DNA of 64,000 nt, from assembly GCA_004519485.1 (NCBI GenBank), contig CP038130.1, forward strand, positions 434,001-498,000, given 5' to 3'. Shown piece after piece: positions 860 to 43,761 of this stretch. The notes under the pieces were generated by a model. That model was not told the DNA's origin. It worked only from the letters and a program-made list of their open reading frames with translations, and ran no database searches. The position numbers and the translations under genes are program-made. The stretch's first letter is position 1, and each line of letters starts with the position of its first letter. This DNA is from Nannochloropsis oceanica (Eukaryota; Sar; Eustigmatophyceae; Eustigmatales; Monodopsidaceae).

Positions 860-2710
860 TGCTATAAGGCTTGCTAATTGGCTGCGTCTGCTGGTCTTAT
901 CCTCCTGAGCCCGGGGATTCACTATGGCGTTTTGTTGATGTGATTTGACGCCACCAAGCTACTTTTTCCCTGGGCACCCTTGGCAGTCGCTTGGCCTTAC
1001 CCTAGCGTGTGCTCTCACGTTACCTGTACCTTGAAAGCGGAGTGAGACGATGAGAGACAATGTATTTAGGCACAACAGTGCCGTTGGGGGGCACACGCAT
1101 ACAAGGAGGCACGGGGAGGGGACAATGAAGTAAACGAGACGTTCTGGGCCGATCGACGAGTGTCATCGGCAAATGCTTTCGACAGCTCTTGTGTTCCGAC
1201 GTCCAATCAGTGCACCGACGCTCCCCCCCCGCCAATGGAGCATCATTGTGCGTCGATTGTCGAGCCAGCTCACCACAGGGCTGAGGGAACGTTCCAACAG
1301 GTGCAAGTGTGGCAAACAAAAATAAAGGTCAACTGGAGATGCTTGCTTGTTCTTCGAGTCACGACGCTGAGACAACACCTCGGGACATCTTCGACATCTA
1401 GTGGTCTTCCATCAAATGCACGATTTTCCGTGGCAAAAACGCCGCGGCGCAGAGGCATGACAAGGAAAACAGGGGCAGGCGGCGTCTGTTTCTACCCCGA
1501 TTCCAGCTTTCGGGTTTGAGATCGGAGGGCAAATCTTGGGGGAGATGGGGGTTTTTAATGGGGTTTTTATAGTTTAGTTCTTTTGTATCAGTTTCCACAT
1601 AACTCCATCGTTGGCCCGAAGTGAATTTGGGGGAAGCCACCAATCTCTGCTCAGGCTCGAGCGCCACCATCGGTTTGAGCTTACAAGCACAGAGACATTC
1701 CCCCGGGATGGATGGGTGGGGCCGCGCCGTTGCCTACTGTCGTGAGGACTGTACTCGCAGCGTGCGCGTCAGGCAAGCTCCTAAGGTTCGGTGCGTGTGG
1801 CCATATAATAATTGACGACATCTGAAAACGATTAAGTTCTCGATGCTGATAAAAGTTGAATAATTGCCTTAGCATTGACAGGGTCGACTGTGGTCCGCCT
1901 GAGGGTGGCGTTTTGGCGCGAAGACAATTAGTTCCCCGCCGCTCGGCAGCAAAATGAAGTTTAAAACCTTTGATTTTTCAGTAATATGATTCATCTACCA
2001 GAAATGATTAATCAGATAGTACCTTTCGTATAATTGTAGATGTAAATGGTACAAATGGTTTCGAACAAAAAGCCAAGGAAGCAATCGTCATACGAAAACT
2101 CGAATTCGGCATTTCCTTTCTCTTAAAAACAAAGAAAAGAATGGGACAGAATGCAGAATATTGTATTGCTATCGCTATAGTGTGCTGAAGTAGGAGCGAA
2201 AACGTGGAACAGGCAGGATAAACGCGGACAAAAAGCCATCAAACTCGCTCGGTCCTTTGCCTCTAGCTGCTGACCCCTTCGGTGCTTGTTGCTCTCAGTT
2301 TATAAGGATAGCTTCCCATATCCTACCACTAACTAGTAGAAGTGGGTTTCATGTTGATGACAAAAGGAGATATTGATGACGCCATGCAAAAGTGCTGTGG
2401 AAAAGGATAGGAGAATGGTCCAGCGGAGGGAGGCTTGGTTTGTTTTTTTTTTTTTTTTTTTTGACAAGCCATCTAGTTCTTTTTGAGCGTTCCTACATAC
2501 CTCTAGAACTATCGCATGCAACCTGACGTCCTCGAGGACTTGCATACGAGGGGGAGCCTCCCAACAATAAATTGTTGTCATCCCTTATTTCCTTGTCCGA
2601 GATTTCTAGCGACTTTGACTGGTTTTATGACCTGGCAAAGTCCCCGGACGGCCCACACAGGGCCAGGAGGAGAAGGGGAAGGAGGATAAAAGAGGAGGTC
2701 AGCGGGAAGG
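860..2710. other. Intergenic, no supported gene
   Basis: No open frame here has protein-like composition or a recognisable motif. The part from about 1,850 to 2,330 is distinctly AT-rich. A run of 18-20 T lies at 2,443-2,462; on the minus strand it is a poly(A) tract about 250 bases past the stop of the Fanzor-like frame. Confidence 0.6.
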
Positions 2711-2935
2711 CTACACATAGAGTGTCCGCATGTCCTGCCGCGGCTGACCAAACCGAAGATCATGGGGACGAGCCTCCCCACGGACCATACTCCTGCACAC
2801 CCGTAGGATATTACGTGCCCCATTGCCGTCCCGAGACACGAACTGTTCACAGGTGTCACACCAATACAGTCCTCGGATGGCCCGCCCATGACCTCCTCCT
2901 CTGCCTCGTCCTCGTCCTCCTCCGCCTCGGCCTCG
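2711..2935 (-). pseudogene. Fanzor/TnpB-like nuclease, C-terminal zinc-finger and RuvC-III fragment
   Basis: The minus frame ending at the TAG at 2711-2713 reads GLYWCDTCEQFVSRDGNGAR then NIL. This matches the second half of the OrfB zinc ribbon (CxxC) followed directly by the RuvC-III catalytic motif RDxNxARNI that closes TnpB and its eukaryotic relative Fanzor. These are RNA-guided nucleases carried by transposable elements. About 32 further residues follow before the stop, as in Fanzor tails. Upstream the frame runs into Gly/Arg-rich low-complexity sequence from a GGA-type repeat; no first CxxC, RuvC-I or RuvC-II motif is joined to it. I read it as an isolated fragment. The motif match is strong; completeness and activity are unsupported. 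Confidence 0.66.
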
Positions 2936-3110
2936 TTCTCCTCCGCCTCTTTCTCCTCTAATTCCACCCCCTCCTCCTCCGCCTCCTCCGCCTCCGCCTC
3001 CTCCTCCGCCTCCTCCGCCTCCGCCTCCTCCTCCTCCTCCCCCGCCTCCTCCTCCTCCTCCTCCTCCCCCGCCTCCTCCTCCTCCTCCTCCTCCTCCTCC
3101 TTCGCTACTG
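2888..3110. repeat. TCC/GCC-type trinucleotide microsatellite
   Basis: About 220 bases of imperfect (TCC)n and (GCCTCC)n on the plus strand. All three frames of either strand are open (poly-Ser, poly-Glu, poly-Gly), so open frames here mean nothing by themselves. It abuts the Fanzor-like fragment. Confidence 0.9.
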
Positions 3111-3479
3111 ATTAATTGGGATGGTATGGTAGGGAGTTGGTGGGGCGTTGACGGCCTTATCGCGTGTTACAAGGGCATGGCACCAAAAACAGAATATCTC
3201 GTGAAGTAAAACGATTTGCCTTGCGAGACGGCCACCACCGTGCGCAGCAAGACGAGAGGAACCCAAAAACAAGGTTTTCACATTGATCGATGTAACTAAA
3301 AGGGTAAATAATCCTAATCTAATCATTCTTCAGGCAAGTAGACGAAGGGAATGGGGGAGGTAATGAGGCTGGAGATGGAAAAGGTGATAGCAACTCTGTC
3401 TTTGCCCGCCCATAAAAGTGGAGGGACAGAGGTTAAGGCAGAAGAGGAGAAAGGGACGGAAGTGGGAAGGTAGGATGCG

Positions 3480-4206
3480 ACGGGAAGGCCAGCGAATGGG
3501 TCAACAATACTATTTGAGCGCCTGGAGCTGCTGGCCCATTGGACTGATGCCTTAAGGGCGAGAGTATGTCGACCTCTATATTTGCGGGAGCTTTCCAAGC
3601 ATATTATCCAAAAACGCCTTACATCTCCCTTTCTCCCACCTTATCTTCACACCTGCTTCTCCCCGTTCCTTCTCGCTCGTCGAATGTAAGTTGACAGTTT
3701 GATAGACAGTCCATCCGTTCGAGGTCCAGGCACTCACTCATTCCTCCCTTCCTCCCTCCCTCCCTTCTTTTGTCCATTCCTCCCTCCCTCCTTGTTTCCA
3801 AATGTACCCCCGACCCAGCCAGTGTGAAGTCTCTACGGATGCGCCTTTTACTTCAACATCAGGCCACGCGAGCGCTGCACGACAACAAGAATGACAGTTC
3901 TGCCCTCCTCAAGTGTGCTCTTATCAATAGGATTCTTCATCTCTTTCGACCTTCCTTCCTCACTTCATCAGCTCCATTTCTCTTCCTCCTCCTTCCCATT
4001 CCCCCCTTCGTCTCCTTCTCCTCCTCCTCTCCTCCTCCCCACGTGCCCGTCTTTATGCGGACCGCTGGTACCTTGGGATAGAAGAGGCAGGGCAGGTACA
4101 TCACGGCAGGTTTGCGGGTGCCGTAAAACGCGTCGTAGCAGATCTTGTCAGCCCCATTTAGGATGTATAGGGACCGGCCAGAAAGTGGCTTGGCAGCGGC
4201 CATCAT
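3480..4206 (-). pseudogene. Alpha/beta-hydrolase-fold gene, probably eroded
   Basis: The first exon, 4072-4206, starts at ATG 4206 and encodes an alpha/beta-hydrolase opening with PAVMYLPCLFYPK, the usual strand-plus-turn before the oxyanion region. A 23-nt exon (3852-3874, RSRGLML) and a segment near 3,650-3,750 with LTFDEREGTGRS, resembling the FDYRGxGxS element, continue the fold. A segment at 3480-3575 reads QIVLLTHSLAF where the nucleophile elbow GxSxG is expected; Ser is kept but both Gly are replaced. The last junction does not hold phase with simple GT-AG joins and no C-terminal His region was found, so the gene looks truncated or decayed. Substrate unknown. The exons run antisense to the region just upstream of the PQ-loop gene. 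Confidence 0.42.
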
Positions 4207-16284: not shown

Positions 16285-17930
16285 ATGGCTGAAATCTTTG
16301 AATCCTACGAGGACGAGTTCCGCTCCCTCGCCTCAGACTGCCAGAAGAATCTCTCCGACCTGCTCACTTACGAGACGAACCGCGACAAAAGGATGGCCCT
16401 CCTCCAACTAGCCACCCCTCAAGGTGAGTAGACACAGCAGCAGGCATATGGCGTACTGGATGGAAGTGGGGCAGTAGAACAGAATTTTTCATGTATGGAG
16501 GGGTGAACATGTGTACCCTTGTACCCTCCCTATCTCCTTCTCTCCCTCCTTTCTTTCACGTCGTATTGTCGCTGAAAAAAGGATATAAGATTGTGGGCCT
16601 TGACTTCATCTGCCCTACTGTCTCTTTGATTCCCGTTCCTTCTTCCCTCCCTCCCTCCCTCCCTCCCTCCCTCCCCAGTCGCCCAACTGGAAGGTATCAT
16701 CAAGCAAATGAAGGTGGAGGTGCGTTCGCAAGACCCCGCCACCAAAGCTGCTCTCAGCATCAAGGTTCAATCCTATGAAAAGGCCTTGGCAGGGGTGAAG
16801 AGTGACTTGGGGAAGGCCCGCGAGAGGGAAGAAAAAGACGCCCTGTTTGGGGGGGGGCGTGCTGGCGGAGGGGCAGGGGCGATGGCGCAACGCCAGAGGT
16901 TGTTGGAGACAAATGAGCGGCTGGCGAATCAAAATCGAACGATCGAGAATGCAAGGAAGGTGATGGCAGAAACGGAGCAAGTTGGTAGGTGAGAGAGGGA
17001 GGGAGGGAGAGGGAAAGCGGAAAAGAGGGAAGGACGATAGAAATTTAGATTTCAATGGCGGTAGCAAGACACGAGCATCATTCAATTATTATCATATCGT
17101 TATGTTTTTTCCGACCATCCAGGCATTCAGATCGGGGAGGAGCTGGATTCAAACAGGGAGAAGATTCAGAACATTCGCGGCAAGGTGAGATGAGAGATAC
17201 GCGGAGATGTGTCAGTCAGGGGGGGGGGGCATGGCCCATGTATTTGGTTGGCGTGCATCCCTTCCCTCTTCCGTCGCGTCTGGAATGCGAGCAGGAATGT
17301 ATGACCTCACTCCACAGCAACACGATTTCCCACCTTTTCTCCTCCTTCCCTCCCTCCTTTCCTCCTTCCCTCCCTCCCTTCATGTTTTTTTCACAGGTGA
17401 GCGAAGTGCAGGGCCTAGCCGGTCAGGCGAAGAAATTAGTCAAGGACATGGGAAAGCGATGGTTCTAACCCGCTCACGCACTATACGTATATATATATAT
17501 ATATATATATTATTCCTCCTCTGAAGAGCCGTGCTGCTGCTGGCGGATGGATGGGAAGGGAGGAGGGCAAGGGCGCGACGATGTCATTTTCGCCTCCCCC
17601 CTCTCCTTCATCGTTTCCCAAGCTCACTTATGCGTGTAAAATTTTGTGCATATACTGTGCCTGTGCGTTTTTTGATTGCACAAGCGAATCGTACATGACC
17701 ATCTTCAACCCACCGTCCGTCCTTCCTCCTCTTCCTCTCCCTCTCCTTCTACCTCTTCATCCATCCCTTCTTGAATCCAGGTCTCGGAGGTGGGTGGACT
17801 AACCAACACAGCCCGGCGACTCATCTCCAATATTAGCCGGCGAGAAACTCAGCAGAAAATGCTATTATGGGGCGTGGCGGGTTCCTTGTTTATCGCTATT
17901 ATCCTGATCATTTATTACTCGTCACGGTAG
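16285..17930 (+). CDS. VTI1: Vti1-type Qb-SNARE with alternative last exons
   Basis: Shared exons are 16285-16423, 16679-16984 and 17123-17184 (169 codons). Residues 1-100 are the Vti1 N-terminal three-helix domain (MAEIFESYEDEFRSLASDCQ, VAQLEGIIKQMKVEVRSQDP). The SNARE helix starts near 110 (QRLLETNERLANQNRTIENA) and runs through GEELDSNREKIQNIRGK. The phase-0 donor at 17185 can reach either 17397-17468, giving 192 residues with no anchor, or 17781-17930, giving 218 residues with the tail anchor MLLWGVAGSFLFIAIILIIY. Vti1 forms endosomal and Golgi SNARE bundles with Qa, Qc and R partners. Introns carry long CCCT tracts before the acceptor. Confidence 0.9.
17397..17468 (+). other. Alternative terminal exon A of the Vti1 gene (no membrane anchor)
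   Basis: Preceded by ttttttcacag. Encodes VSEVQGLAGQAKKLVKDMGK then RWF and a stop, 24 codons. It aligns without gaps to the first 24 codons of exon B: VSEV, Gly-Leu at 6-7, Ala at 11, basic pair, Leu at 14. If used it keeps the SNARE heptads but ends before any transmembrane segment. Confidence 0.7.
17486..17511. repeat. (TA)n dinucleotide tract between the two alternative exons
   Basis: An uninterrupted TA repeat of about 11 units just downstream of the stop of exon A, inside the intron that precedes exon B. Confidence 0.85.
17781..17930 (+). other. Alternative terminal exon B of the Vti1 gene (with tail anchor)
   Basis: Preceded by ttgaatccag. Encodes VSEVGGLTNTARRLISNISR, RETQQK, the transmembrane helix and a short luminal end YYSSR, 50 codons with the stop. 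This is the canonical Vti1 ending. Confidence 0.85.
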
Positions 17931-18585
17931 AGAAGCAGAGGGGAAGGGAAGGAGGATCGAGAGAGGGTGAGGCCTTACATGATCGTATACCTTAATCTTT
18001 TCAATAATTCAGGTGTATTCTCGTGACCTGCATGTAATACAAAAGCAACTACAGGAGGGGTTGTACAAAAGAAAGATAAATTAATGAGATTGCGCGACAG
18101 GACACGAAATGAATTTGTCGCAGGGACGAGGAGAGAGGGAGTAAGAAATTGCGGAATGTCACCCGTCTATCCTTAGAGACACGGTAAAACCGTGATTTTT
18201 TTCTCTCCTCATGAGGAAAACGACCCCTCATGCACCAAGCCGACCGAGGGCACTCGGAACACGTTAGACCTCCTGGCTCACACATGTTCGTGTTGGACCG
18301 CCTTCCTCCCTTCGAATACAAAAATTAATTTTCCCCCCACCTCCGATCACTACTCTATCATTTTTGACCTGCGTCGCTTACCACACATGTCGTCACATGT
18401 CCCACACTCAGCTTCTTCCATTCGATGGCCTGTCCCGAGGCCGGGCCACGGCAACTTGAAGCTCTCGAGCGATGGCGGCGATACGATAGGCATGATAAGA
18501 TGACCCCTTCCTTCGATTCAGGCATTTGTCCCACACATCAAACCCATCCCAGACATAGCACAACACAGTCATCATCATCACCACT
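17931..18585. other. Intergenic, no supported gene
   Basis: 655 bases between the Vti1 gene and the TFIIF-alpha-like gene on the same strand. Nothing recognisable. Confidence 0.5.
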
Positions 18586-39253: not shown

Positions 39254-39761
39254 GACTGTGGCCGCTTGCAGGAAGGTGAGTGGAGGCTATAAAATTGTCC
39301 CGGGGTTTGTCTCTGTGAAATAGGGATAGGGATAGACCCATTAAATGAGCATGAATCGGAATGATAGTCTCGAGTCTAGAGGAAGTAGCCATCGCATTGA
39401 CTGATTGAAACGCAAACGCATTCGCAAAGCTTGATTTTTGCGTTGTTGTGAAGGAGGGCATTACAGTGTCGCCCGAGTTTCGTCGTTATGACGACGATGT
39501 CTAAGCCCGGCGCCCCGCTTTTTTCCACACATTACTTTGTTCCTAGTCCCCATTTCCGTCTTTAATGCCCGCCTTGCGTGGCTTTCGGAGGAAGCACAAC
39601 ATCTTGTGCCATGCCGCACTCTCAAGTACACTCCTTCACCCCCCACCACAGGTAAGTACACTCCTTCACCCCCCACCACAGGTTGTAAACTCCCGACGGC
39701 AACATTCCCACCCGATCCGTCATCGATCTCCAGCCGGTCCAAACGCCCCACCCAACAAGTG
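39254..39761. promoter_or_regulatory. Divergent intergenic region (TRAP-alpha / ATP-grasp)
   Basis: 508 bases between divergent starts, containing the 30-bp tandem duplication described separately. The ATP-grasp frame is open through its last 225 bases without an ATG. Confidence 0.45.
39624..39683 (+). repeat. Perfect 30-bp tandem duplication forming a GT-AG unit
   Basis: Two identical adjacent 30-bp copies (39624-39653 and 39654-39683). Because each copy ends in CAGGT and starts AAGT, the junction creates CAG|GTAAGT at 39652 and the second copy supplies a pyrimidine-rich run ending CCACAG at 39681. The sequence 39652-39681 is thus a 30-nt unit with consensus 5' and 3' splice sites, upstream of and in frame with the ATP-grasp ORF. 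Confidence 0.9.
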
Positions 39762-42864: not shown

Positions 42865-43761
42865 TCAAGACAGAATGCACCCAGCCTGATATTTGGCCGC
42901 CTTCTCCACCTGCTCCAACCCACTCTTGGCCGCGGCATGAGAGTGCTGCACGTTTTGCTCGATCACGTCGATGTCCTCCTGCTGCCTCGACACCAGCTGC
43001 CCCAAATCCCTAAAGATCTCATTGACCTTGACCACCGACTGATTGATCAACACAATCTCCGCCTCTCGTTCCTGCAACAATCTCTCGTCCAGATCCTCTG
43101 GCATCAGCATCTGCTGCTGCTGCTGCTGCTGAAGCATCTGCATCCTCTGACCCCCTCCGCCTCTCGCCTCTCCTCCTATTCTCCCATTTTCTGACCCCCC
43201 GTCAAACAATGCCTCCGCCCGTCGTCCCACCAAGTCCAACTCCCGTATTCTTGCCGCGGTTCCCCTTCCAAAATTCTCAAATCGTAATTTTAATCTCTGG
43301 GCGTCCTTACTCATCTTCTGTATCTCCGCCTTCGTCCTATCCTTCTCCCCCTTGGTCGGCAACCCCTCCACGGCTCGTATCTGGGTACTGATCTGTTGCT
43401 CTACCCTCGCACCAACTTCCTTGACGACGCACTCTTGCGCAAGAAGCTGGCTGCGGAGCTCAGCGTCGTCGCGAGGCCCTCCCAATACACGTGCCAGCTT
43501 CTCGTACAGCTGCACTTGCTGCTGATATGCAAGCAAGGCCTCCCGCAACGGTGGACTTGGGCTGCTACCACCGTTGCTTCTGCTGCTGCCGTCGTGCGTG
43601 CTGCTGCTGCTGCTGCTCCTCCCCGAACCCGCATGCATCACAGAGGTAGTAGAGGAGATGGGGACCCGGTTGCAGTATTGCCTGCGCCCCTGACCATTGT
43701 TGCTGCTCCCGAATCTGTTCTCATTGCTATGCTGGTGGCCAGCCACATCTTGGAAGGACAT
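42865..43761 (-). CDS. Qa-SNARE (syntaxin) ending in a CaaX box instead of a membrane helix
   Basis: Single exon, 298 residues. The N-terminal part is Ser-rich, then an Habc-like helical region (REALLAYQQQVQLYEKLARV, KAEIQKMSKDAQRLKLRFEN). The Qa SNARE motif spans about 222-290: LQEREAEIVLINQSVVKVNE, IFRDLGQLVSRQQEDIDVIE (zero-layer Gln included) and NVQHSHAAAKSGLEQVEKAA then KYQ. The endosomal Pep12/syntaxin-7/SYP2 group is the nearest pattern. Where a transmembrane anchor should follow, the protein stops with AGCILS; Cys-Ile-Leu-Ser is a good farnesylation-type CaaX box. The stop is at 42865 and no GT-AG path to a hydrophobic exon was seen downstream. Confidence 0.87.
   Translation of the reverse strand: MSFQDVAGHQHSNENRFGSSNNGQGRRQYCNRVPISSTTSVMHAGSGRSSSSSSTHDGSSRSNGGSSPSPPLREALLAYQQQVQLYEKLARVLGGPRDDAELRSQLLAQECVVKEVGARVEQQISTQIRAVEGLPTKGEKDRTKAEIQKMSKDAQRLKLRFENFGRGTAARIRELDLVGRRAEALFDGGSENGRIGGEARGGGGQRMQMLQQQQQQQMLMPEDLDERLLQEREAEIVLINQSVVKVNEIFRDLGQLVSRQQEDIDVIEQNVQHSHAAAKSGLEQVEKAAKYQAGCILS

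Follow-up and report, generated by a model that had tools for sequence, protein, structure and literature searches.

Two homologous candidate last exons, with and without a membrane anchor, in a Vti1-type Qb-SNARE gene of Nannochloropsis oceanica

Terminal exons that have been duplicated, exon duplication inside SNARE genes and soluble splice forms of SNAREs have each been described singly (PMC9741552, PMC2581893, PMC8263458). In vertebrate STX3, alternative 3' exons distinguish syntaxin 3A from syntaxin 3B by changing half of the SNARE motif together with the anchor, and a soluble form, STX3S, is also made by splicing (PMC8263458). The isoforms SNAP-25a and SNAP-25b go back to an ancient duplication of exon 5 inside a SNARE gene (PMC2581893). 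Tropomyosin is among the genes with tandem duplicated C-terminal exons, where homologous 3' exons replace each other, and C-terminal regions were reported to be swapped in 77 of 236 human events (PMC9741552). Recursive-splicing exons (RS-exons) start with a sequence resembling a donor, which is reconstituted at the exon junction (PMC6224609), and an anchorless form of yeast Vti1 in which the SNARE layers are kept has been described as soluble Qb (sQb) (PMC8143792, PMC6994237). Here we describe a gene of the alga Nannochloropsis oceanica, for which alternative splicing has been reported (PMC12702839), that probably combines several of these features: it is predicted to encode a Vti1-type Qb-SNARE and to end in either of two homologous last exons, A and B, encoding an anchorless and an anchored form, respectively, with exon A as an old copy of a B-type exon under selection on the protein.

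The stretch of DNA analysed (the window) comprises 64,000 nucleotides and belongs to a genome of 29.3 Mb in 32 contigs, with a G+C content near 53% and CCCT-rich introns. The gene lies at window positions 16285-17930 on the forward strand (Table 1). When exon 3 is joined to exon B, the predicted protein matches the Pfam family V-SNARE (PF05008) with 55.2 bits over residues 1-93 and V-SNARE_C (PF12352) with 40.3 bits; the corresponding values for the form ending in exon A are 56.0 and 39.2 bits, all of them above the family cut-offs. The best PDB match, for which the B form only served as query, is Vti1a (2nps_C, E 1.9e-6). With its N-terminal Vti1-type domain followed by a V-SNARE_C motif, the gene is predicted to encode a Vti1-type Qb-SNARE. 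A preliminary description of the locus had placed one phase-0 donor, at 17184, opposite two acceptors, and had assigned a tail anchor to exon B and no membrane helix to exon A. The exon coordinates and the shared donor were confirmed on re-checking, and the sequence, read directly, has the tail anchor in exon B and none in exon A. Both exons continue the frame of exon 3 in the same phase and start with VSEV. Exon A encodes 23 residues ending in KRWF, with the stop codon five residues past the methionine of layer +8.

Table 1. Exons and candidate splice signals of the Vti1-type gene (window coordinates)
Feature	Position	Strand	Remarks
Exon 1	16285..16423	+	ATG; ends in phase 1; start of N-terminal domain; donor AAG/GTGAGT
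Exon 2	16679..16984	+	Remaining N-terminal domain and first part of SNARE motif; donor TTG/GTAGGT
Exon 3	17123..17184	+	SNARE motif near zero layer; ends in phase 0 (...NIRGK); donor AAG/GTGAGA
Exon A acceptor and pyrimidine tract	17373..17396	+	18/20 pyrimidines; CACAG
Exon A, putative alternative last exon	17397..17468 incl. TAA	+	VSEVQGLAGQAKKLVKDMGKRWF-stop; preceded by TTTTTTTCACAG
First bases of exon A, GTGAGC	17397..17402	+	Candidate recursive 5' splice site, motif only
Exon B acceptor and pyrimidine tract	17757..17780	+	15/20 pyrimidines
Exon B, last exon	17781..17930 incl. TAG	+	Tail anchor MLLWGVAGSLFIAIILIIYY; preceded by TTGAATCCAG

The residues encoded by the two exons align without gaps over 23 positions, of which 9 are identical and 15 positive, giving a BLOSUM62 score of 43; shuffling the residues of A 100,000 times never produced this score. 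We compared B with all 3,046 phase-0 frames that follow a YAG on either strand of the window, a set that contains A and B themselves; after A, the next-best frame scores 15 and contains a stop, while the best open frame scores 13. An unfiltered scan of YAG pairs was dominated by repeats, as 1,563 of 453,568 pairs score at least 30 and the 40 listed are mostly low-complexity sequences or near-identical DNA repeats, and a filter for complexity and DNA identity was therefore applied in a second scan. This covered 319,164 phase-matched YAG pairs in 264 kb, i.e., the window together with 200 kb from contig 2, and the A/B pair ranks second among them. The first-ranked pair (score 51) is leucine-rich-repeat-like and is preceded by 4 pyrimidines in 20 at both of its sites; the third (score 42), which has PPSFP-type repeats at its end, is preceded by 15 and 6 pyrimidines in 20. 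Among the 25 pairs listed of the 107 scoring at least 22, only A/B has at least 15 pyrimidines in 20 at both sites. The resemblance over about 23 positions that had been noted at the outset thus withstood these comparisons; the two exons are, judged by their encoded residues, homologous, and within the window their similarity exceeds chance by far.

At the level of DNA, the similarity between A and B is not significant, since 166 of 500 shuffles reach it. Codon position 2 is identical at 13 of 23 codons (P 0.0009), whereas position 1 agrees at 8 codons (P 0.30) and position 3 likewise at 8 (P 0.23), and the same codon is used for 3 of the 9 residues common to both exons. With only position 2 above chance and the DNA diverged, this is the pattern expected of an old pair under protein-level selection, and exon A appears to have been kept by such selection, as far as 23 residues can tell. 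An open frame would also fit a decaying relic without function, as frames following a YAG are often open over 23 codons by chance (715 of 1,459 on one strand of the window and 791 of 1,587 on the other), but the retention of position 2 and of the protein pattern, while positions 1 and 3 are at chance level, makes a relic highly improbable. Exon A has a hexamer coding score of 0.453, which places it at the 60th percentile of coding segments; 7.7% of random open segments, a set that itself contains coding DNA, score at least as high. This measure carries little weight: in exon B, the corresponding 69 nt ought to be coding but reach only -0.104, the 8th percentile of coding segments. A search for relatives, with one scan each of the viral_contigs and genome_contigs collections, in which an alga would seldom be found, gave 5 and 69 pattern matches, respectively, none of which was confirmed.

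We then considered whether exon A can complete a SNARE helix. The piece of the SNARE motif that ends with exon 3 scores 33.2 bits against V-SNARE_C by itself, 43.7 bits with the B segment and 42.4 bits with A; four hand-made permutations of A gave 32.2, 32.5, 33.5 and 35.0 bits. In the layer register that we assume, with heptads counted from the asparagine in LDSNREKI, layers +3 to +8 are occupied by V V A A V M in exon A and by V V T A I I in exon B. All six layer residues of A fall within the set VILMFAWC, which 441 of 200,000 shuffles of A matched; B would fail this strict layer test owing to the threonine at +5. The V-SNARE_C fit and layers +3 to +8 both agree with the earlier statement that the helix pattern is intact in the A form. 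At the level of sequence, both exons thus provide the C-terminal half of the SNARE helix without a shift of register, and the anchor is added by B only.

No GTRRG donor is present between 17397 and 17780 except in the first bases of exon A. With no donor of its own, A would be an alternative last exon and not an internal mutually exclusive exon. The description of the exons as mutually exclusive is therefore imprecise, since each exon of an internal pair has both an acceptor and a donor, whereas A and B both end in stop codons. Two homologous terminal exons in the same phase behind one donor form the arrangement of tandem-duplicated last exons. Acceptors were judged from pyrimidine counts only: 18 of the 20 bases before A are pyrimidines, compared with 15 before B, 20 before exon 2 and 14 before exon 3, so that A and B are both plausible acceptors. 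Attempts to derive donor and acceptor models yielded noise from hexamer-based de-novo intron finding (208 candidates without a consensus) and too few data for splice-site models from acceptor-anchored intron finding (82 acceptors, 201 pairs). No clear poly(A) motif emerged from the ends of 69 genes, and across the whole window no Rfam family reached its gathering score. Positions 17140-17159 of exon 3 are complementary to 17764-17783 at the exon B acceptor at 17 of 20 positions. When 16285-18100 was divided into 35-nt windows, none outside exon 3 formed a stronger duplex with that exon, and 29 of 2,000 shuffles gave as strong a duplex. The complementarity could affect acceptor choice, but in a folded 900-nt ensemble the probability of this pairing is zero to two decimals.

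Any transcript whose frame ends in A cannot encode the anchor, and acceptor A could accordingly act as a poison last exon that mainly diverts transcripts from the anchored form, with a soluble protein that does little. As no donor follows A, no later exon junction would form and junction-dependent decay would not be expected. The layer residues, the fit to V-SNARE_C and the conservation of codon position 2 suggest instead that selection acts on the protein, and we consider a mainly diverting role distinctly improbable.

The junction between exons 3 and A would read AAG/GTGAGC, which differs from the exon 3 donor at +6 only; a donor is thus rebuilt at the junction as in a recursive-splicing exon, as far as the motif goes. 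Exon A could then be removed in a second step that joins exon 3 to exon B, and the soluble mRNA would be an intermediate or the product of a blocked step. Apart from the near identity of the two donors and the lack of any other GTRRG before exon B, this reading can draw on the scarcity of the motif, YAG being followed by GTRAG at only 2 of 864 pyrimidine-rich sites in the 264 kb, and on RS-exons of animals, in which donors of this kind at the junction and regulation by the exon junction complex have been described (PMC6224609, PMC8605326). However, the rate is alike at pyrimidine-poor YAG sites (15 of 6,560), which indicates that the motif is not enriched at acceptors, and GTGAGC can arise from a V-S start by codon choice alone. 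The intron between exons 3 and B measures only 596 nt, and a bare ratchet site needs no SNARE-like residues behind it. Recursive removal of exon A is thus improbable in our estimation. We are very doubtful about a splicing switch in which joining 3 to A gives a soluble Vti1 mRNA with the rebuilt AAG/GTGAGC and a controllable splice to B converts it to the anchored form; if it were true, a second splicing of the transcript would set the membrane anchoring of a core endosomal SNARE in a unicellular alga. The locus offers a compact case of a putative terminal exon that opens with its own donor motif. Elsewhere in the window, a tandem 30-nt copy (AAGTACACTCCTTCACCCCCCACCACAGGT; 39624-39683, forward strand), identical by eye, has an acceptor-like CACAG directly before GTAAGT.

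To place the two exons among other Qb-SNARE sequences of the genome, we compared them with the loci from a SNARE search. Contig 26 (L008, 1934-2398) holds a short two-exon Vti1-like Qb-SNARE gene without a Pfam-recognised N-terminal domain, the corresponding segment of which scores 47 when compared with A and 43 when compared with B. Across the other 16 loci, the highest six-frame scores range from 15 to 25 with A and from 15 to 27 with B, and in-register Qb segments score, with A and B, respectively, 23 and 12 (contig 1), -7 and 15 (contig 15), and 13 and 22 (contig 4). By these scores, A, B and the contig 26 segment form a close trio. When the 21 columns were bootstrapped 20,000 times, A and contig 26 were closest in 10,944, A and B in 5,981, and B and contig 26 in 2,181, with 894 ties. 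Both the scores and the bootstraps lean toward capture, i.e., derivation of A from another Vti1-like gene, such as the short one on contig 26, and not from exon B. Against this, the VSEV start at the junction is common to A and B, whereas contig 26 has IREM, adjacency and equal phase favour a tandem duplication, and 21-23 columns cannot settle the origin; on balance, we regard capture as rather unlikely and tandem duplication as favoured by position and the common VSEV. The preliminary view that one exon duplicates the other is likely but is not the sole reading, as the contig 26 gene is equally near to A. Comparison of the sequences upstream of A and of B gave a similarity score reached by 87 of 500 shuffles. 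A similarity between the downstream sequences (2 of 500 shuffles) was dropped as a possible trace of duplication, the alignment being an 18-nt purine-rich run.

Two further SNARE-like frames were observed. On contig 1 (L009, about 1960-3770), a Qb SNARE-like frame, which we take to be NPSN-like, continues beyond its hydrophobic segment with a long tail of EPEPEP / VAVTPSVEPE repeats. In the window, a Qa syntaxin-like open frame of 298 aa without a membrane helix (42865-43761, reverse strand) ends in AGCILS-stop, presumably a CaaX-like end that could be prenylated. It matches Pfam Syntaxin_2 with 30.9 bits and SNARE with 23.9 bits, the latter below the family cut-off, and its best PDB match is syntaxin 1A; a last exon may have been missed, as a hydrophobic stretch lies downstream of the frame (about 42453-42391).

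In the account that we favour, exon A would be an old copy of an exon-B-type segment, retained by protein-level selection. Splicing of exon 3 to A would end the frame in A and yield a Vti1 of 192 residues, expected to be soluble, in which the SNARE helix is complete and the anchor absent, while splicing to B would yield the anchored form of 218 residues. It is less well supported that the soluble form would join endosomal/vacuolar SNARE complexes as the Qb helix and that the ratio of A to B would set the membrane-bound share of Vti1. The effect on fusion could be help, with a HOPS-like tether, or damping. An anchorless Qb-SNARE supports HOPS-dependent fusion in yeast vacuole reconstitution if the R-SNARE and one Q-SNARE are anchored (PMC8143792, PMC6994237). 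When the anchored partner is Qa, a soluble Qb that lacks layers +4 to +8 no longer supports fusion unless Sec17 and Sec18 are added (PMC8143792), and in the same yeast system an anchorless R-SNARE is a known fusion inhibitor (PMC6994237). As exon A keeps layers +4 to +8, a role of the A form as a productive or tunable fusion partner seems at least as likely as that of a competitor, which it may also be.

Within the paper collection searched, nothing joins Nannochloropsis, alternative splicing and SNAREs, and searches on Vti1 or SNARE splicing brought up no like Vti1 case among the matches listed, judged from their titles and the starts of their abstracts. The combination in one Vti1 gene, with a homologous last exon that lacks the anchor, is thus without precedent among these matches. 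For SNAP-25a/b, we know of no change between an anchored and an anchorless form that results from the choice of exon 5. The exon 5 copies are described as mutually exclusive (PMC2581893), whereas here the exons would be alternative last exons. The soluble STX3S arises from skipping of exon 10A and not from a homologous anchorless last exon (PMC8263458); moreover, syntaxins are Qa-SNAREs and the case is from animals, whereas the present gene is a Qb-SNARE of an alga. Compared with C-terminal exons of the tropomyosin type, one copy here lacks a membrane anchor that the other bears. Exon A differs from RS-exons in having no competing downstream donor, and a second splicing step would here be a motif-based possibility. 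If it is transcribed, the locus would be a natural gene yielding anchored and anchorless Qb-SNAREs through two homologous ends. The yeast sQb is a purified recombinant protein, whereas its counterpart here would be encoded in the genome. The purpose of the Vti1 anchor, which the cited papers address with recombinant soluble SNAREs in reconstitution, could then be studied in a living cell.
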